A DNA stretch of 64,000 nucleotides from Malachius bipustulatus. Its lineage: Eukaryota; Arthropoda; Insecta; Coleoptera; Melyridae. Each line of letters starts with the position of its first letter. Positions within the stretch are counted from its first letter, which is position 1. Both the position numbers and the translations under genes were made by a program. The stretch is from positions 44,176,012 through 44,240,011 of the forward strand of contig OU342630.1 in NCBI GenBank assembly GCA_910589415.1, in the 5' to 3' direction. This document shows positions 14,127-64,000 of the stretch, in pieces. The notes under the pieces were generated by a model. It made no database searches. It saw nothing but the letters and a program-made list of their open reading frames with translations, and had not been told where the DNA came from.

Positions 14127-17012
14127 CTAAATATCATAGGTAAAACAGTCCAGTGCTGTGTTCAAGATACCGTGATGACTGTCAAAATGCACATCACATC
14201 GTTCCGAAATAATATTAAAATAATAACACATTATATTAATTGGAGATCGCTTCATCACATTAGTCCTGAACGACGGAGAGTACAATAAAGTGTGCTGCCT
14301 AGCGTTATGACGAGGAACTAAAAAGTATATTCGGCCCAACAGAAACGCACAATCCACGCCATGGTTAAGTATGCCATATAGAAAACGAATAACTGCAATG
14401 ACACGTCTTGTCTCAAGAGAAATGAAGTCAAACATTCTCAGAAGGACACCATGATCAAAACCTCTCTCAGGATAAGCACCACGTTCGACAAGGAATAAAA
14501 ATTTCAAAAACTTCCTCTGAATAGACTCCAAGTTGGTGATATGTTGTTTGTTAATGGGAAACCAAATCATGCAAGCGTACTCAAGTCTCGATCTTATTAA
14601 GCTATAAAATAAACAGGTTAGTGCATTGATGTTTTTAAAGCTCCTACAATTACGGTAAATGAAACCATAGAGTTTATGAGCCTTTGAGACTATATCGGAG
14701 ATATGACTTGCAAACGTAAGTTGGTCGTCAAACAGCACGCCTAAGTCTCTAGTTGTGATAAGTCTATTTAAGATGCAGTTATCAATGGAATAGTCAAAGA
14801 CTATCTTGTTCTGCTTCTTGGAGAAAGACATGACGCTGCACTTGGATGTATTTAGTAGTAGTCGATGTTTCCCACACCACGAAACAAGAGTATCGACATT
14901 CTGTTGCAGAACCAGACAATCATTTATAGAAGTAATGCTTGCATACATTTTAATATCGTCAGCATACATCAAGGCGTTGCAGCTGAGTAAAGGTGGAAGA
15001 TCATTAATCAACAGCAGAAACAGGAGGGGACCCAAATTTGAGCCCTGAGGCACTCCTGAGGTGGGAATAAATGTAGAGGACGTGAAATTCCGATACCTAA
15101 CACACTGTCTCCTTTCAAGAAGATATGATGTAAGTAGCGAAACAAGAGATGGAGCGAATCCATAGAGCTTTAGTTTTTCCAGCAGGACATAATGATCTAC
15201 TCGATCAAATGCCTTCTGGAAGTCAGTATAGATCACGTCTACTTGACCTTTGATATCAATAACCTCGGATGTAAACTGACAGAAAGTGGCCAAGTTGGTT
15301 ACAGTCGATCGCATTGTGACGAATCCGTGCTGTGCTGGCGAAATAAAACCCTTTACATGGTTGTAAATGCGGTTATATATGATGCATTCAAAGCACTTTG
15401 AAAAATTGCACAGAAGTGAAATGGGTCGATAGTTGATAACATCGGCTGCATCTTCCTTTTTTAGGATGGGAGTTATCCATGCCCGCTTCCATAGTGTGGG
15501 AAAAACTTGAGTCTTAACTATAAGATTAAACAGGATATAGAGAGGCTTCATGAAGACACCGGCACAGTCTTTAACAACAAAGCTCGGTATACCATCAGGT
15601 CCGGCGGTAAATGAGTCTTTCACCTGCCTCAAGCCAGACATTACTTCGTCCTCTGAAATAGATGCAATGAAAAGAGGCAAGTCACATTGGGTTTCCAGAT
15701 CACCAAGAAGAGGGTTTGGTTTAGATGCGGTATAGACTCCATTGAAGAATTCGCTGAAAGCATTTAAAATCAGGTCGGGATCCGAAAGCTCATGACCGTT
15801 ATACATCATAACTCCAGGTATTCGCGTTTGACCTCTCCTGCTTCGAATAAACGACCAGAAGTTTTTAGGTTCTCTGGTCAGTGAGGTTTGAATGTTATCC
15901 AGATAGTTTCTGTAAGCGGCCGATATGAGTTGGTTGGAGACAGTGCGAAAATGTCTGAATCTGGTTTGATAATGAATAACCCCAGTCGATTTATACTTCC
16001 GATGATAATAGAATTTAGATCTCAGGTGTTGTACAATTTCAGGTGTGAACCAGCAAGGATAAATTCGTTTAGTGTTACGGGTTTTTGAAAATTTTGGTAC
16101 AGACTGTTCAAATAATTTACAAATAATTTCATAGAACTTGGAACAGGCCTCATCAACATTATCAAAAGAATTCAGAATGCTCCAGTCAGTGTTAAGCAGT
16201 AGGTTATATAAGAGAACATAGTTGGCTTTCCTGAAGTTGAACTGTCGAGTACCAGTATTCAGTCTAAAGTTACTAGATGATTCACTACATAGCTGAAAGG
16301 AGATGTCGATTGCCGGGTGGTAACCATCCTCAGGAACAAGAGCGGTGTCAGATCTGACAACCACGCATTTGGTTAGATTGGAAAATACCAAGTCGAGGAT
16401 TGAATTGTATTTGTTAGGTATGGCGTTAGATTGTGCGAAATTGTTAAACCTTTCGAAGTTACTAAGAGACGAGCTAATTCTAGAGTTTACATCAGTACAA
16501 AAACAAGGCGCGTTAAAGTCTCCTAAAATTATAATATTATTACCCTGTATATTGTCCAGCTGATTAAATAAACTGAAAAATAACTCATAGTCCTCAGCAG
16601 ACACAGCTGGCGGTATATATACAGCAAATAAGCATATATTTAGGCACGAAGATACGTATAATTTTACGCCAACTATGTCAATAAGAGGCAAAGCTTCAGT
16701 TAACGATCTTAGATTAATTTCCTTGGTTAAAAATTTTTTTCGTAAAGCTATTAATACACCTCCGCCCTTCGTGAGACCTGTAGCATGCGTGTCTCTATCC
16801 CTGCGGTAAACTAAAAAGTCCTCACCAAACATCTCACCATCAGCAATGTCCTCGCTTAACCATGTTTCAGTCAGTGCGATGACATCATAGTTTGAGGAAC
16901 ACACACCATTGTAAAATAAGGGAATCTTTGATCGAAGTCCACGAACATTCTGGTAATAGACTTCAGTGGTTGCAGGTGATGTTATCGGATTCCGGTAATT
17001 GGGAGGATTCAG
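14127..17012 (-). CDS. LINE ORF2: endonuclease-reverse transcriptase
   Basis: About 961 residues if counted from the CUG at 17012-17010; the frame is open back to 17060. Domains (numbered from that CUG): an apurinic-type endonuclease, starting 'YYQNVRGLRSK' near residue 27, then 'LTETWL' near 47, 'GDFN' near 164 and 'YHPAID' near 221; a reverse transcriptase from about 450, with 'DFQKAFD' near 587, 'SGVPQGSNLGPLLF' near 642 and catalytic 'YADD' near 673; then a C-terminal tail. There is no RNase H. The enzyme nicks target DNA and copies the element RNA in place. No ATG exists before the first conserved endonuclease residues, and the frame overlaps ORF1 by about 50 bases in -1, so expression must come from frameshifting or non-AUG re-initiation. 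All the catalytic motifs named are intact. Confidence 0.92.
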   Translation of the reverse strand: MNPPNYRNPITSPATTEVYYQNVRGLRSKIPLFYNGVCSSNYDVIALTETWLSEDIADGEMFGEDFLVYRRDRDTHATGLTKGGGVLIALRKKFLTKEINLRSLTEALPLIDIVGVKLYVSSCLNICLFAVYIPPAVSAEDYELFFSLFNQLDNIQGNNIIILGDFNAPCFCTDVNSRISSSLSNFERFNNFAQSNAIPNKYNSILDLVFSNLTKCVVVRSDTALVPEDGYHPAIDISFQLCSESSSNFRLNTGTRQFNFRKANYVLLYNLLLNTDWSILNSFDNVDEACSKFYEIICKLFEQSVPKFSKTRNTKRIYPCWFTPEIVQHLRSKFYYHRKYKSTGVIHYQTRFRHFRTVSNQLISAAYRNYLDNIQTSLTREPKNFWSFIRSRRGQTRIPGVMMYNGHELSDPDLILNAFSEFFNGVYTASKPNPLLGDLETQCDLPLFIASISEDEVMSGLRQVKDSFTAGPDGIPSFVVKDCAGVFMKPLYILFNLIVKTQVFPTLWKRAWITPILKKEDAADVINYRPISLLCNFSKCFECIIYNRIYNHVKGFISPAQHGFVTMRSTVTNLATFCQFTSEVIDIKGQVDVIYTDFQKAFDRVDHYVLLEKLKLYGFAPSLVSLLTSYLLERRQCVRYRNFTSSTFIPTSGVPQGSNLGPLLFLLLINDLPPLLSCNALMYADDIKMYASITSINDCLVLQQNVDTLVSWCGKHRLLLNTSKCSVMSFSKKQNKIVFDYSIDNCILNRLITTRDLGVLFDDQLTFASHISDIVSKAHKLYGFIYRNCRSFKNINALTCLFYSLIRSRLEYACMIWFPINKQHITNLESIQRKFLKFLFLVERGAYPERGFDHGVLLRMFDFISLETRRVIAVIRFLYGILNHGVDCAFLLGRIYFLVPRHNARQHTLLYSPSFRTNVMKRSPINIMCYYFNIISERCDVHFDSHHGILNTALDCFTYDI

Positions 17013-17806
17013 TTTAAAGTGACAATTTTCGGCGAGCCATTGACATAGCGCAACTTCAGATTATTTTCTCCCTGCTCACACCTCAGTTTCATCTCCTCTC
17101 TCAGATGCTTATAGGCTTGCAGTTGTCTTGGAGTTCTGTCGAAACTTATTGACACGTCTTTGTATCGGGTGCTGTTTTTCAAAACCTTTGCCTTCCGAAC
17201 GACATCAACAACCTCAGACTCATGAGTCAAAGAGACCTTCAATGGACGTGGTCGATCTGTTCTACCGTCAAATCGTCCGAGTCTACGAACCTGTAAACTG
17301 GACTTACCAGCATCAGAGTTAATAGCACATAAAATCTCCCCCACTGCAGTAGAATCCTTAGTGATACGCTGGTCTCTCGTTTCCGATGAAGTTTGTTCAG
17401 GCAAGTTGAAAATAATGATGTTCTTGGATCTTCTCTGCCTATCTACAACTTCCTGCATCACATCTTCTAATGAATCTGTTGTGGATGGTTGTTGCTGCTG
17501 CTGTTGAGATATCAGAGCTCTCAAGTTTTTGACTTCAGTACTGAAGTCATTTCTGATCTCTTCCAAGGCCACGGAGAACTCACCCCTCAGCAGATCGACA
17601 AAAGATTTAAGGTCCTTAAAAGAACTCATGTTACCTGCACAGGTGCTGCATACGATCTTGAAGGCCTTAGATTTGGCCCTGGTGACTCTTATGTCCGTTT
17701 CGGAAAGACCGACGCAGGACGAGTGTAGCGGTCCTTGGCATGCATCACACTGTATAGTGCTTTTACTTGACTTTATATCACCGCTACAATTCCGACAAGA
17801 ATTCAT
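17009..17806 (-). CDS. LINE ORF1: PHD-finger, nucleic-acid-binding protein
   Basis: 265 residues from the ATG at 17806-17804; an upstream in-frame GTG at 17845 is less likely. A Cys4-His-Cys3 PHD finger uses C4, C7, C20, C23, H28, C31, C53 and C56. A predicted coiled coil (about 60-105) and a short glutamine run follow, then an RNA-binding-like domain beginning 'NIIIFNLPE' near 133 with basic patches to the end. ORF1 proteins coat the element RNA; PHD fingers in ORF1 are established for CR1-like elements. The last codons form T_TTA_AAC followed at once by TGA, a -1 slippery site into ORF2. The reading frame is intact. Confidence 0.88.
   Translation of the reverse strand: MNSCRNCSGDIKSSKSTIQCDACQGPLHSSCVGLSETDIRVTRAKSKAFKIVCSTCAGNMSSFKDLKSFVDLLRGEFSVALEEIRNDFSTEVKNLRALISQQQQQQPSTTDSLEDVMQEVVDRQRRSKNIIIFNLPEQTSSETRDQRITKDSTAVGEILCAINSDAGKSSLQVRRLGRFDGRTDRPRPLKVSLTHESEVVDVVRKAKVLKNSTRYKDVSISFDRTPRQLQAYKHLREEMKLRCEQGENNLKLRYVNGSPKIVTLN
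17012..17018 (-). promoter_or_regulatory. Candidate -1 ribosomal frameshift heptamer TTTAAAC
   Basis: In the ORF1 frame the heptamer reads T_TTA_AAC and is followed directly by TGA. A one-base backward slip gives CTG AAT CCT, which is exactly ORF2. U_UUA_AAC is among the best-known -1 slippery sequences. The nearest clear hairpin I see, GAAGTC/GACTTC (plus-strand 16934-16939 and 16959-16964), begins about 47 bases downstream, farther than usual. The CTG overlapping TGA could instead serve re-initiation. Confidence 0.6.
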
Positions 17807-18140
17807 GATTTTATTATTTAGGTAGGTAGGTATATATTCCAGCACTTCGATTGTTTATTATTATTATTGCCTCGAAATCACCTCGACCAGTATCACAATG
17901 ATGAAAAAACTCCCGATAAGATATGTGCGTTGAAATTATTGACCCAATTATCGAGATTTCCAAAGACTATGTGTCACTAACAATAGGTAGATTAAAACTA
18001 CTCTCATCAACGGATGTATGAAGGCTAGACGAATCTATTGGTATCAAACAGTCGATTATCACTTGTTAGAGAATGAAGATATTAACGTCAAAAGCAGGAG
18101 CGACGTTCAACCGCACTTTATGATGAATTTGTTTTTAAGG

Positions 18141-30591: not shown

Positions 30592-30621
30592 ACGGATTCC
30601 AGCAAGAAGATTGATTAGTTA

Positions 30622-31950
30622 ATGGGTAGATTAAGAAGTGGAAAGGAAACTGGAAGCGACAAAATGTCTGAACAAATGTTGGCGGATATGATGTTACTGC
30701 TCAAAAACGGCCAGGAAGAGCAGAAGAACATCATGAAGAAGCTTGAAGACGGCCAGGAAGAGCAGAAGAACATCGTTAAGAAGCTTGAAGACACAGAAGA
30801 GAAGCTGCTGCAACAACATAAGGATAGCGAAGAAAAGCTGATGCAACAGCAGAAGGATAGTGAGGAGCAGCTGCTAAAAGTTATTCTGCAGCAAAGAGAC
30901 GATTATGTTTGTGAACTAAACAAAGTGAAACAAGACATTGACAGTGTTCGCGATGAAGTCGGTGGTGTTCGCGATGAAGTGAAATTGGTAGAAAATCGAG
31001 TAGAACAGAAAACGAAACTGCTGGTAGAGGAGATCGAGAATAAACTCAGAACTCTCGAAAGTTCTGAGGTGAAGCATCCTCCGTGTGCCGTACCGACCAG
31101 CAGTTTTGGCGCGAAAGTGAAACCACCAGCGTACGACGGAACAACTCCCTGGACTGCGTACAAGATGCAGTTTCAGGCTGCATGCATGGCCAACGGGTGG
31201 AACAACGCAGAGAAGGCAACGGCACTGGTTCTTGCTCTTCGAGGGCAAGCTGTGGACATGCTGCAAACACTGCCGGTAGAACTGCACTCAAATTACGACC
31301 AATTGAGTGCAGCATTAGAACTTCGGTTCGGCAATCGCCATATGGAGCAGGTGTTCCAAAATCAGTTGATGAGCAGAGTGCAGAAGCCGAACGAGTCGCT
31401 ACAGGAGTTCGAAGCAGATGTCAACAGGATTGCCCATCAAGCCTACCCGGACTCGCCGCAGAATTTCAAGGAACAACTAGCCTCGCAAACCTTTGTCAAC
31501 GGAATACGAGACACAGAAATACAGAAGATCCTGCGCATGTCACACTTGACAAAGTCCAGCGAAGCGCTAGTTAGAGCGCTCGAAATAGATGCAGCAATCA
31601 AAGCGTCCAATGGTAGGAACTTCTCCAAGGTACGAGCAGTGACAATCAATGAAGAAAAAGAAGAGGACGTGACTACCATATTGGAAAGGCTAAGTAAAAT
31701 GATGGTGGATAAGCTCTCTGACCTGTTGAATAATGATGGGAAAAGAGGTTGGACTCCAAGGGACGAAAACAGGAAACAGTGCTACCGTTGCGGTTCCAGT
31801 TTTCATTTCATACGCAATTGTAAGGCTGGTGAGCAGACTCATCGAAGTAGTGGATCCCTGGAACAAGGACCAGACAGGGAAAGGAACAGAACCAGAGATA
31901 GAGGTATCTATCGGGAACGGAAAGATCTTCGTCCGCAGCAGGAAAACTAA
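30622..31950 (+). CDS. gag: Gag polyprotein
   Basis: 442 residues, intact. Residues about 15-125 are a charged coiled coil that contains two near-identical repeats ('DGQEEQKNI'). Residues about 150-330 form the retrotransposon Gag domain ('WTAYKMQFQAACMANGWNN'). One zinc knuckle, CYRCGSSFHFIRNC (C-X2-C-X4-H-X4-C), lies near residue 388, with a basic Arg-rich end. Gag forms the particle and binds the RNA. The start is the first ATG after the primer site. Pol lies in the -1 frame and overlaps the gag end; the last codons, GAA AAC TAA, resemble but do not match a consensus slippery site. An intact gag is consistent with a need for packaging. Confidence 0.9.
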   Translation: MGRLRSGKETGSDKMSEQMLADMMLLLKNGQEEQKNIMKKLEDGQEEQKNIVKKLEDTEEKLLQQHKDSEEKLMQQQKDSEEQLLKVILQQRDDYVCELNKVKQDIDSVRDEVGGVRDEVKLVENRVEQKTKLLVEEIENKLRTLESSEVKHPPCAVPTSSFGAKVKPPAYDGTTPWTAYKMQFQAACMANGWNNAEKATALVLALRGQAVDMLQTLPVELHSNYDQLSAALELRFGNRHMEQVFQNQLMSRVQKPNESLQEFEADVNRIAHQAYPDSPQNFKEQLASQTFVNGIRDTEIQKILRMSHLTKSSEALVRALEIDAAIKASNGRNFSKVRAVTINEEKEEDVTTILERLSKMMVDKLSDLLNNDGKRGWTPRDENRKQCYRCGSSFHFIRNCKAGEQTHRSSGSLEQGPDRERNRTRDRGIYRERKDLRPQQEN

Positions 31951-33763
31951 TTTCAGCCAGTGTGGAGGGGCGAATACTGGCTGACGACATCAAGGCCCCT
32001 AAGTTCGGTTCCACCAGAACACCGCAGTGCCATGTGGACAGCCAAGACATCAGAGGGCGACAAGATGTTTTCAAGACATCTGGTTCGTGGCGAGACAGAA
32101 ACGGGAGCGAAAGACCCAGCTTCCGAGTGGAGAGCAAAGGTTTCTCGAGGAGTGAGCGAGACTTCAGACGGGGCGGTGGCTGCTGGCGGTTTGGTGATAA
32201 TAATGGTCATGGTCGCAACCATGAACGGAACTGGGACGGAGAAAGACGCCCATTCAGGCGATTCGAGGACCGGAGTGACAGTCAGGGCAGTTTCATCAGA
32301 AACCCGCCACCGGCAAATGATGAGCAGGAGAGTAGGTCATCGGAGCATCATCAGAGGCCCAAGCTGACGTTGGCGCCTCGTGTTAAACCGATTGAGGACA
32401 GCCGGAAGGAAGAATGCGTTCGAAGGATCGTGATCAATGAAGATACGGCATGGACGATAGAAGCATGCAGGAAAGAGCAAGAAAAAGACGAAGACATCGG
32501 AGACATTTTAAAACGTAAAGAAGAGAATGGACCGAGACCAACGTGGGCAGAGGTTTCTCCACGTAGCCCAGAATGTAAAGCTCTATGGTCACAATGGGAG
32601 TCGCTGCAAATCGAAGATGGTCTGCTGAAGAGAGCCTGGGAGAGTGCCGACGGAAAGAAGATCGTCATGCAGTTGGTGGTTCCAAGGAGTAAAGTTCCGA
32701 AGATTCTCGAAGTAATCCATGGAGGTACATCAGGAGCTCACTTCGGAGTGAACAAAACACTAGCGAAAGTTCGAGAGAGGTTTTACTGGGTGAACTGCAA
32801 GGACGATGTCGAAGCCTGGTGCCGTAAGTGCGAGAAATGTGCTGCAAGCAAGGGCCCAAGCAGAAGACTGACAGGCGCTATGAAGCAGTACAACGTCGGA
32901 GCCCCATTCGAGAGAGGATAGCCATAGACGTAGCAGGTCCTTTTCCAATCAGTGACAGCGGCAATCGCTTTATCCTGGTTGCCATGGATTATTTCAGCAA
33001 GTGGCCTGAAGCATACGCCATACCGAACCAAGAAGCTGCTACAGTTGCGAGAGTCTTGGTGGATAATTTCATTAGCAGATTTGGCGTACCTTTAGAGTTG
33101 CATTCCGATCAAGGACGAAACTTTGAATCCCAAGTTTTCGCAGAAATATGTAAACTGCTCGGGATAAACAAGACAAGGACTACACCTCTCCATCCACAAT
33201 CTGACGGTATGGTAGAACGGTTTAATCGAACAATGGAGGAACATCTGTCGAAGGTGGTGAGCAATAATCAGCGAGACTGGGACCAGTACCTGCCTTTGTT
33301 GCTGATGTCGTACAGGGCAGCCATCCATGAGACTACAGGGCAAACACCAGCCAAAGTTGTATTCGGTAAGGAGATTCGGCTACCCTGTGATTTGGTGTAC
33401 GGTTCACCAAGCAGTCCACCATCGGAGATCAGAAATTATGTCGACGAATTAAGAAACTCCATGGCAGAAGTGCATTCCCTAGTCAGGAGGAAGATCAAGT
33501 TGGCCAGCGACCGAATGAAGGCGAGGTACGACTTGAAGGCAAACTCCGGCGGCTTCACAGAAGGAGACAAAGTGTGGTTTTATAATCCAACTAGGAAGAA
33601 GGGTTTGTCGCCTAAGTTTATGCCATCCTGGGAAGGGCCTTACACAATTATTAAAAGGATAAACGACGTGGTGTATAGGATACAGCGGAGCGGAGCCCCC
33701 AAGTGCAAGATGAAGGTAGTCCACCTGAATCGTCTGGCACCCTACTGTGGAGACAGCGAATAA
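31951..33763 (+). pseudogene. pol: Pol remnant: integrase, with frameshift
   Basis: Follows gag in the -1 frame. The first 150 codons are an Arg/Gly/Ser-rich segment with no protease 'DTGA' and no reverse transcriptase 'YxDD' motif. Next come the linker usually found after RNase H ('GPRPTWAEVSPRSPECKALW') and the integrase zinc finger (H near 'IHGGTSGAHFG', Cys pair 'CRKCEKC'). The frame then breaks inside GAGAGAGG at about 32910-32918 (a two-base gain or equivalent) and continues at 32919-33763 with the DD35E core: 'IDVAGPF', 'HSDQGRNF', 'VERFNRT', spaced correctly, and a C-terminal 'GPY' domain. Integrase inserts the cDNA; this copy cannot make it whole without frameshifting. Confidence 0.88.
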
Positions 33764-62204: not shown

Positions 62205-62715
62205 AGATTATTGAACGAAATATCCAACTCTTTTAAAACTTTTGAAGTAATTTGGATTTGCGTTAAAAAAATTCCAAAAGTCGCGTAACTTCTACAGGGT
62301 GTGCCTTCAATATTCGAAAAAAACGGGTTCTTGTTCGCTCATTTCAGGTCGCAGTTATCAATCTAAGGTACTGAAATTCTTGTGGAAGAAAGATATACAT
62401 AAACAAAAGCTGATATTGCATTTGAGCAAAATCGGATGCAAAATGGCGGACATTTGAATTTTCCGAAAAATGCTATTTTTTGAATCCCGGTAGGAGCAAG
62501 ATGGTAAAAAAAAACTTTGAAACCAAATTAACAAGAAAATTATTTGAAATTTGAGTAATTGAAATAAAATTTGCATTATGTCTGTTAATAAGCCAGTGAC
62601 GTGGGTAGGAAAAGGCTAAAAATGGATAAATTTTATTACCATATATAAGTACATTTTTGAAGGAATTGAACTGATTTTTCTTACAGTAGACAACTATAAT
62701 AATAATATTCAACCT
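62205..62715. other. No gene; one fold-back-type terminus
   Basis: CTACAGGGTGTGCCTTCAAT at about 62294 is a single TACAGGGTG-type end with no partner seen. The rest is AT-rich and unassigned. Confidence 0.35.
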
Positions 62716-62901
62716 TGTGACGTTACGTCGAGCGTCACGACGCCGCAACGTCGAATTATACAATTAATTTAATAAATAATAAATTAATTTTTAATTTTTA
62801 AATACAAAATTCGATTCTTTTATATTTTATAAAATGTTTCATATTAATATTCAAAAGGACGGTAGTAACCGATAAGAAACCGAAGCCAAGCCATCTGAAG
62901 A

Positions 62902-62922
62902 GATAAGACGGCGTTGTTTACG
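62902..62922 (+). promoter_or_regulatory. Upstream repeat, copy 1
   Basis: GATAAGACGGCGTTGTTTAC(G) recurs at 63026-63046 with one difference, 124 bases closer to the TATA box. Probable activator site pair. Confidence 0.6.
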
Positions 62923-63025
62923 GTCGGAAACTAGCGTCACTGGTAAAATTTGTAATATTTCAAATTAAATAAAGGAATGTTGTTGTTGTCATGAAGAAGC
63001 AACAGGCAAAAAAAGGGACGCGCCC

Positions 63026-63046
63026 GATAACACGGCGTTGTTTACG
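63026..63046 (+). promoter_or_regulatory. Upstream repeat, copy 2
   Basis: GATAACACGGCGTTGTTTAC(G), about 12 bases upstream of the TATA box. Confidence 0.6.
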
Positions 63047-63057
63047 CGAAAACCGGC

Positions 63058-63065
63058 TATATAAG
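63058..63065 (+). promoter_or_regulatory. TATA box
   Basis: TATATAAG in GC-rich context (CCGGC before, CAGCGGACG after). Transcription would begin about 25-30 bases on, just before the first hairpin. Confidence 0.65.
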
Positions 63066-63100
63066 CAGCGGACGAAGAATGAATCGAGGAGAGCGAATAC

Positions 63101-63516
63101 AGACGTCTTAGGAAGTTGACCTTTGATATTCTGCTAGCTCTCCGAATCCTCCAAAAAGGAACGAAGTGTTGGAAAGTTGCTCCTCCACTTATGTACTTTT
63201 AATCCAATCCCGAATCTCGCACGTTGCGCGAAATTCATCCAAGTTCACGCTGGAGCTAGGAAGTTGACCTTCCTCCAGGTGGCTTACCAGAGCGCGCCCT
63301 CCGGGCTATCGAACGCGAATCAGCGGTAGCATGTTGCCCTGCCCTGATTTAATTGTTCCGGAGCGGTGTCAATTCTTTTCCCTAGACGCTAGAATGTTGC
63401 TCTAGCGCCAAGTCACCGATCGAGGTCTTCTACGTAAGTTGCACATGGAAGATCTAGTCGGTTAGACGTAAATTTAATCTTCTGTATATCCTATAATTGA
63501 AAGTTGATCAATTATG
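63101..63516 (+). repeat. Series of eight stem-loops with a shared 7-base loop
   Basis: Loops and positions: AAGTTGA 63113, AAGTTGC 63174, ACGTTGC 63221, AAGTTGA 63261, ATGTTGC 63331, ATGTTGC 63394, AAGTTGC 63436, AAGTTGA 63501. Each is closed by a different stem: AGG/CCT; GGA/TCC with AAGTG/CACTT below a 2x2 internal loop; TCGC/GCGA with GAAT/ATTC; AGG/CCT with CTGGAG/CTCCAG below a 2x2 loop; GGTAG/CTGCC (C-C mismatch next to the loop); CGCTAGA/TCTAGCG; a nine-pair helix plus GT/AC; ATAATTGA/TCAATTAT. Loop starts are 40-70 bases apart. Conserved loops on changing stems point to an RNA structure under selection, perhaps a protein-binding site. Confidence 0.85.
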
Positions 63517-63574
63517 CGGTAGCAGAGATTTTATTCCCATGTAGTTTATTCGATTTGTAAATAATTTCATTTTT

Positions 63575-63580
63575 AATAAA
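63575..63580 (+). terminator. Poly(A) signal
   Basis: AATAAA about 60 bases after the last hairpin; it would end a transcript of roughly 500 bases that began after the TATA box, or define the R/U5 border if this is an LTR. Confidence 0.5.
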
Positions 63581-63600
63581 GATAATAAATTTTAAGTCAT

Positions 63601-64000
63601 TAAAACGCCATAGAGCATTACTATTTCAATCAGAAATTATTATATTAAATTTAACGAAATAAAATCAAACTCATTTTTATTTCATTTTCAAATTATTGCC
63701 GCCTTGATAAAATACCAGTTTTTATTCAAGAATCACGGCATCGAGAAATCTTCTGTTGGTAAAAACCCTTATCTGAATATAGACACCAACCGAGGTGTTA
63801 TTATATCTCTCTCGCTCCCGTGCTGCAGTCGCTCCACGAGGTAGGAGCATTTAATCTTGTATTTTTGTGTGTTTTTGTAGCAATCTGACGGCATCAGGCG
63901 ACCAGCTTGAGCGATGACCTTGACCTAGACACCCCTTGCGATAGGTGAACTCGACGCCAGCCGGAAAACCAAGAATATATAATCGGTTCACGATGTTTTA
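63601..64000. other. No gene recognised up to the window end
   Basis: Sequence turns AT-rich, then GC-richer from about 63780. No primer binding site or internal coding region that would prove an LTR element could be identified before the window ends. Confidence 0.35.

Follow-up and report, generated by a model that had tools for sequence, protein, structure and literature searches.

What keeps one seven-base loop constant across eight neighboring hairpins whose stems differ, and what would read it? The question is raised by a cluster of stem-loops in a 64,000-nucleotide stretch of Malachius bipustulatus DNA (contig OU342630.1, positions 44,176,012 to 44,240,011), hereafter the window. We analyzed the array itself, the element that carries it and its relatives in the same genome.

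An array of eight hairpins with a common loop

On the + strand, eight ANGTTGM heptamers start at positions 63113, 63174, 63221, 63261, 63331, 63394, 63436, and 63501, a span of 395 bases (63113-63507). Every ANGTTGM in this span is the loop of a hairpin, and the stems differ in sequence:

63105..63127, + strand: hairpin H1, loop AAGTTGA at 63113-63119
63164..63190, + strand: hairpin H2, loop AAGTTGC at 63174-63180
63212..63236, + strand: hairpin H3, loop ACGTTGC at 63221-63227
63250..63278, + strand: hairpin H4, loop AAGTTGA at 63261-63267
63318..63349, + strand: hairpin H5, loop ATGTTGC at 63331-63337, C-C at the closing position, bulged stem
63387..63407, + strand: hairpin H6, loop ATGTTGC at 63394-63400
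63425..63453, + strand: hairpin H7, loop AAGTTGC at 63436-63442
63492..63516, + strand: hairpin H8, loop AAGTTGA at 63501-63507

The motif occurs 70 times in the whole window against 75.5 expected, which is the chance level, so only its clustering and the stems are unusual. At least six of nine flanking positions pair in 8/8 ANGTTGM hairpins. When the array region was dinucleotide-shuffled 5000 times, one such hairpin appeared in 65 shuffles, two in a single shuffle and more than two in none; the original prediction of eight ANGTTGM loops on differing, paired stems was thus borne out. Across the eight stems, 59 of 72 cells (81.9%) were paired, compared with 49.9% after shuffling of the 3′ letters (equalled in 0 of 500 shuffles), and the second pair beneath the loop was G-C in all eight. 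The plan that had been described originally for two of the hairpins (an upper stem of 3 bp, a 2x2 internal loop and a lower stem) was exact for H1, H2, and H4 but not for the others: one mismatch interrupts H3, the helices of H6 and H8 run without a break, and H5 and H7 are irregular. H1 and H4 have 14 bases in common, AGGAAGTTGACCTT. Tandem repeat finding reported nothing at the array, and no Rfam match above the gathering threshold was obtained in the window.

In the predicted ensemble all eight stems were present. H1-H4, H6, and H8 closed their 7-base loops with a probability of about 0.87-0.95, and the closing pair of H7 reached 0.62 above a firm lower stem, while the C-C at the closing position of H5 widened its loop to at least nine bases over a firm stem. 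Fold energy of the whole region was tried as evidence for the strand and rejected, because both strands fold equally well (z = -3.87 for the + strand and -3.92 for the - strand). G-U cells outnumbered A-C cells (28 versus 13, of 252), which hints modestly at RNA of the + strand. A 64-kb scan for clustered hairpins that have similar 7-base loops, from which loops with six or seven A/T letters were excluded, scored 8 at the array, 6 at its mirror on the - strand and at most 3 (+ strand) and 4 (- strand) elsewhere; without the A/T filter, and with grouping by four loop letters, AT-rich stretches yielded clusters of up to 13.

The array lies in the LTR of a young retrotransposon

The array is located inside a solo LTR, the features of which are as follows:

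62712..62715: target-site duplication ACCT, 4 bp, left copy; the right copy lies past the LTR end, beyond the window
62716..64000, + strand: solo LTR TGTGACG...CGTTACA, 1417 bp, ending at about 64132, beyond the window
62902..62922, + strand: U3 direct repeat, copy 1
63026..63046, + strand: U3 direct repeat, copy 2
63058..63064, + strand: TATA box TATATAA, 55 bases ahead of the first loop
63575..63580, + strand: AATAAA poly(A) signal

From the positions of the TATA box and AATAAA, R is predicted to start near 63088 and end near 63600. The array would therefore lie within R and be present at both RNA ends. The flanks of the window LTR (L129) read AACCT before it and ACCTT after it, and neither the following 7.3 kb nor the rest of the window contained a second LTR copy. 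The core of the 21-base direct repeat in U3 is TTGTTTAC, which to our eye recalls a forkhead/FOXO binding site; GTTGTTTACG is also present upstream of the TATA box in another family (family B below, locus L175).

The array region was searched against the window's own assembly (544 Mb, 52 contigs), and the best 40 of 148 candidates were scored, with 97-100% identity. Sixteen of these 40 copies formed eight LTR pairs with a spacing of 3087-3093 bases, two of which (L128 and L130) were examined. Their LTRs were 1418-1420 bp long, with 99.93% identity within a pair and target-site duplications AGAG and ATAG; the window LTR matched each LTR of L128 at 99.4% and each LTR of L130 at 97.4% identity. 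The retrotransposon LTR setting suspected originally was found, as a solo LTR with its target-site duplication and as the same LTR paired in full-length copies. Two bases past the 5′ LTR, both full-length copies carry TGGCGCCCAACG, a primer binding site (PBS) starting TGGCGCC that may be tRNA-Lys-like. Their interior of about 1.67 kb holds a single 479-aa open frame of Gag plus retropepsin, with matches to PF03732 (Retrotrans_gag, E 2.6e-7) and RVP (E 2.7e-5), both above the cut-off. No frame for reverse transcriptase (RT) or integrase was found in this interior, which has no room for pol. The carrier is a young Ty3/gypsy-type retrotransposon, and the two full-length copies examined encode Gag-protease only. 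TR-GAG elements are gag-only, non-autonomous LTR elements of plants; L128 and L130 likewise have an LTR pair, a PBS, a single gag frame and no pol (neither RT nor integrase), but differ in that the host is an animal, Gag is fused to protease and the LTR carries the array. No NNGTTGN loop with six of nine pairs was found outside R in these two copies.

Phage and plasmid collections gave no match. In viral contigs the three-hairpin pattern of the array fitted at least 119 stretches, none of which had more than five hairpins per 450 bases in the ANGTTGM test; the two with five were taken as chance. By the loose rule, five ANGTTGM hairpins fell within 450 bases in L016 (near 4096) and L094 (near 3311); in L094 the listed hairpin starts are 15 bases apart, as in a tandem repeat. 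In a search for Gag in the viral contigs, two stretches fitted the pattern, with no relative among them.

Related elements in the same genome carry arrays upstream of gag

The Gag of the carrier family (family A) gave 114 matches in the genome (1815 candidates, 89 scored), most of which grouped at 83-100%, 60-67%, 47-58%, and 34-36% identity. A search with the Gag of the D group gave 113 matches (2292 candidates, 112 scored) and brought in a further set, E, about 48-56% identical to D and in most cases aligned only from residue 40 or later. Regions upstream of gag were then compared at 39 loci of the first search (30 extracted automatically, nine picked by hand) and at seven hand-picked E loci. 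Arrays of 5-11 seven-base-loop hairpins were found at 42 of the 46 loci, with Gag identity down to about 34%. Under one fixed rule (loop RNRNTGM plus a stem), arrays of 5-10 hairpins were found at 36/39 loci (A 14/15, B 14/15, C 4/5, D 4/4), where the A copies, and also the B copies, are close kin and the groups are therefore the independent units; 60 dinucleotide shuffles per locus gave at most four hairpins. In set E, 6/7 loci had 7-8 hairpins with the family loop in a ladder listing, and a stricter cluster rule counted 7, 8, 6, 7, 4, 6, and 2 at the seven loci.

The LTR is incomplete or rearranged at all four array-less loci: U3 and R are missing in L165, the 5′ LTR is inverted in L177, homology to C begins only near the LTR end in L183, and R is deleted in L206. 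In L168 (family B) the last two hairpins are gone and the LTR is deleted at that place. The seventh hairpin of family C lies about 300 bases past the other six.

The LTRs of A and B gave no blastn match at 1e-5 and only 45% identity in a forced alignment, and each keeps eight hairpins, which start 55 and 57 bases after the TATA box. At 15 of the 16 array-bearing loci inspected, the first loop follows TATATAA or TATAAA by 43-68 bases; neither motif was found ahead of the array at the remaining one, L188. Genome-wide, the three-hairpin pattern of family A had 180 + 129 matches, and a reversed-pattern control had none. The array is also present in a pol-bearing relative, L167 (RVT_1, E 6.6e-36).

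Some copies depart from the usual layout. The D2 elements (L187 and L188) have 10-11 hairpins instead of eight, several with near-identical stems (GGCT..GGTC, CTCC..GGTG), which would fit a partial duplication of the array. Among older family A copies on one contig, C1 (L194-L199), the identity of R is 70-94%, and the first hairpins of L199 appear to be partly duplicated.

Loops are uniform within families

The loops were uniform within each family and set several of the families apart. Family A has ANGTTGM in 8/8 hairpins, and an older subfamily also admits C at position 4 (ANGYTGM overall); family B has GWAYTGA (8/8), family C GNGWTGA (7/7), D1 GNANTGA (8/8), and D2 GYANYGA (11/11), the D class being close to B. 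Because these class-defining hairpins had been picked with the loop in mind, all NNNNTGN loops on stems were later listed per array. Only family loops were returned for A (8/8), C (6/6), D1 (8/8), and D2 (10/10), and 8 of 10 were of the family type in B, the others being CAGCTGG and AAGTTGG. The latter, an A-like loop on a weak stem, lies at 586-592 in L175 and recurs at other B loci, where it overlaps the 3′ stem of a GTACTGA hairpin.

G6 is common to all family loops, U5 to nearly all, and A7 to most. Positions 1 and 3 set the classes apart within one host genome, with A1/G3 in family A, G1/A3 in B and D, and G1/G3 in C. This uniformity within families agrees with the proposal that the hairpins are repeated sites, apparently made for one reader. 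Stem pairing exceeded that of shuffled partners in each of A, B, C, D1, and D2 (0/2000 shuffles). On folding, at least one stem pair reached a probability of 0.7 in all eight hairpins of A and in 28 of 34 in the other families (B 8/8, C 5/7, D1 8/8, D2 7/11); the other six of the B, C, and D hairpins do not form.

Two further observations concern the loop ends. In the D1/E arrays (L186, L189, L200-L205) the loop-closing pair is mostly U-G, with U at -1 and G at +1, which suggests an extended 9-base recognition unit, UGNANUGAG. In all families, positions 1 and 7 are G + A, or A + A/C, combinations that we suppose could form a sheared pair over the stem.

Loops are conserved while stems and linkers change

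Family A was compared over 30 LTR rows, after three rows from places already present had been dropped; some of the rows are LTR pairs of one element. None of the 40 fixed loop sites varied, against 11 of 144 stem sites and 37 of 313 linker sites; two variable loop sites were seen, at positions 2 and 7. In six older family A copies, found with a pattern that fixes three neighboring loops so that the fixed positions of H4-H8 but not of H1-H3 could show change, loop changes were mainly at positions 2, 4, and 7. The exceptions were a change at position 6 of H5 in L197, a missing position 7 of H8 in L196, the absence of H6 in L195 and L198, and the replacement of H7/H8 by other sequence in L198. 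Within B, nine loop sites varied: two were at position 2 and varied in many rows, and the other seven each varied in one row of 14, which we take to be that of L168, where the LTR has a deletion beyond H6. C and D2 showed no variable loop site (0/49 and 0/77), but their linkers were nearly invariant too (6.2% and 2.3%).

More informative were the R regions of D1 and E, of which eight could be aligned (L186, L189, and L200-L205). Cells with a minor letter numbered 3, 18, 1, 24, 2, 0, and 0 of 64 each at loop positions 1-7, that is 6/320 at positions 1, 3, 5, 6, and 7 and 42/128 at positions 2 + 4, compared with 123/1004 in stems and 223/1021 in linkers, the most variable part. The original prediction had named loops that diverge as fast as the stems as evidence against it, and the opposite was seen in these eight relatives. 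Compensatory stem changes, the other check proposed, gave a divided result. Both-side changes occurred in 9/64 stem pairs (15 cells), above the shuffled means of 4.9 and 6.1 and reached by 2 and 0 of 500 shuffles, where the shuffled cells were still 79.5% paired compared with 82.3% observed. However, of six controls in which the partners were slid, the +1 slide equalled the nine both-side pairs (with 10 cells versus 15). All six slides brought pairing down to 28-53%, and this comparison favors a structure that was itself derived from a single row. The stronger evidence thus comes from the loop pattern, the weaker from the compensatory changes. Taken over the alignable relatives, in which fixed loop positions change far less than stems and linkers, the selection on RNA structure that had been predicted is well supported for these hairpins.

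Candidate readers of the loops

One set of host proteins faces all these families, yet positions 1 and 3 of the loop are constant inside a family and differ among A, C, and B/D, which favors a reader that travels with the family and makes Gag the natural candidate. The Gag proteins were inspected for an RNA-binding domain. None of the Gags read from A, B, C, and E (two from E) has a CCHC knuckle, and the D Gag has one knuckle plus a C-C-I-C variant in which I replaces H. A conserved N-terminal segment of about 40 residues, common to the A, B, C, and D Gags, bears a weak resemblance to a SAP domain (Pfam SAP_new25, best E 0.0038, 2/5 members); between the A and D Gags identity is only about 35%. 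The CCHC knuckle was rejected as sole reader, since it is missing from the A, B, C, and E Gags read, and so was the SAP-like N-terminal domain, for which domain support is weak and which is missing from the E Gags read. No Gag RNA-binding domain tracked the array among the A, B, C, D, and E Gags read. The E Gags L207 and L208 have very long charged tails (T, E, R, Q, K), with neither CCHC knuckles nor a SAP-like N-terminus. The E elements resemble D in loop class and can be aligned with it in the LTR, and they may thus depend on D proteins supplied in trans.

On balance we lean toward the reading that the hairpins are recognized by the element's own Gag and serve, at either end of the RNA, as a packaging signal with many sites. 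On this reading, the array would give the R of this LTR retrotransposon lineage many sites for RNA recognition. Transcription would start at about 63088, and R at both ends of the genomic RNA would give 16 copies of one loop per full-length RNA. The reader would most likely be the element's own Gag or Gag-Pol precursor, many molecules of which would bind the loops, mark the RNA as self, shift it from translation to assembly and nucleate the particle. Since the hairpins of each family keep one loop on drifting stems and linkers, a change of the loop probably goes along with a change of its reader; this putative Gag-to-loop coevolution is drawn from three clearly different loop classes (A, B/D/E, and C) in one genome. 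Against reading by Gag speak the nearly common loop class of B, D, and E in spite of the distance between the B and D Gags, the lack of a known Gag RNA-binding domain that follows the array, the six B, C, and D hairpins that fail to fold, and the four array-less loci, damaged or incomplete as their LTRs are. More tentatively, and with slightly less than even confidence, we propose a self-recognition code, in which co-resident families each carry 5-11 hairpins with one heptaloop (ANGYUGM, GWAYUGA, GNGWUGA, or GNANUGA) read by their own Gag. All sites would switch letters in concert with the reader, and E, lacking the SAP-like segment and the knuckles, would keep the loop of its helper D.

The loops could instead be sites for a host RNA-binding protein that acts in nuclear export, localization, stability or silencing evasion and tolerates R-N-R-N-U-G-M in all families. 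The constancy of G6, with U5 in nearly all loops and A7 in most, would fit one shared reader, as would the near identity of the B and D loops despite distant Gags and the failure of any Gag RNA-binding domain to follow the array. But positions 1 and 3 are uniform per family and differ among A, C, and B/D in a single host, a pattern that a tolerant reader does not need, and we regard a host reader as unlikely, if still worth serious attention. Control of translation or decay through the 5′ leader and 3′ UTR is a weaker contender, which we rate as decidedly improbable. Cap-proximal hairpins could limit scanning or block exonucleases, or a bound protein, perhaps Gag, could stop translation, and the position of the first hairpin near the predicted start site and the stability of most stems in the predicted fold are consistent with this; structure alone, however, would not fix the letters at positions 1, 3, 5, 6, and 7.

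Contact between RNAs, in the form of kissing dimers, circularization or first-strand transfer between the two R copies, would make use of an R predicted at both ends, and some B loops do contain short palindromes (AATT, GTAC). Most ANGTTGM loops, however, have no four-base self-complement (ACGTTGC has one), and inspection by eye showed no pairing among the loops of an array, so we give this reading very little weight. Still harder to sustain is the idea that the array has no function and arose by tandem duplication of one hairpin or by chance. Copying within arrays has occurred, as seen from the 14 bases shared by H1 and H4 and the near-repeated stems of D2, but the stems of one array differ and covary, no tandem repeat was reported, shuffles fail to reproduce the array, and the loop positions of relatives do not diverge like linkers; the chance that such an origin suffices seems minimal. 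Cleavage by IRE1 was rejected. Its consensus CNGNNGN is likewise a 7-base loop, on about five pairs (PMC3149027), and family A loops do carry G3 and G6. But position 1 is A in 8/8 loops, and the scissile G3 is replaced by A in B and D.

Comparison with known systems

Multi-site packaging in small single-stranded RNA viruses, such as satellite tobacco necrosis virus (STNV), is the nearest working analogy to recognition by Gag, as many hairpins with one loop motif are involved there and the reader is the capsid protein. The STNV coat protein prefers many stem-loops with the loop AXXA and is indifferent to stem sequence (PMC3593212); the difference is that up to 30 copies with a 4-base loop are spread across a viral genome that has no LTR. 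Retroviral psi (PMC8096270) resembles the array in having stem-loops near the RNA 5′ end, with loop letters that Gag reads there (the purine loop of MMTV) and may read here, but it consists of several unlike stem-loops (SL1-7) at the 5′ end, whereas here 5-11 copies of one loop are found. In yeast Ty1/Ty3, Gag selects its own RNA with cis signals at the RNA ends, and the packaging sequences are not precisely defined; Ty3 differs in needing a CCHC finger, which is absent from the family A Gag (PMC4974528). An LTR survey describes long R regions as weakly conserved and links the remaining conservation to stem-loops (PMC3601003).

The carrier resembles the Osvaldo lineage of Ty3/gypsy in its long LTR, 1417 bp here and 997-2055 in Culex Osvaldo-like elements. 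The PBS of that lineage is given as invariantly tRNA-Lys, and the section of PMC3286476 on the lineage makes no mention of a hairpin array. The PBS here starts TGGCGCC, which would fit tRNA-Lys; the likeness to the lineage was judged from LTR length and PBS. No description of such hairpin arrays or of their setting was recognized in the literature searched, which agrees with the earlier statement that no described element has one, though a coverage that is partial cannot prove absence.

RNA choice by Ty3-type retrotransposons is poorly known, and the candidate sites described here can be read by eye, with 5-11 per R. They differ between families in one genome and are testable with short RNA hairpins and purified Gag. 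If recognition by Gag is true, the arrays would form a natural series of evolved RNA-protein specificities, allow one to study how a protein evolves jointly with eight of its sites, and indicate on which helper a given non-autonomous element depends.

Other elements in the window

Two other mobile elements were seen in the window. One, at 30619-33763, is again of the Ty3/gypsy type; its overlapping frames encode a Gag domain (Retrotrans_gag) together with integrase domains (H2C2, rve), and protease and RT gave no match in the three frames scanned. On the - strand, 14127-17854 holds a non-LTR retrotransposon with a 977-aa open frame for endonuclease and RT, preceded by a 281-aa frame in which a PHD-like finger scored just below the cut-off.
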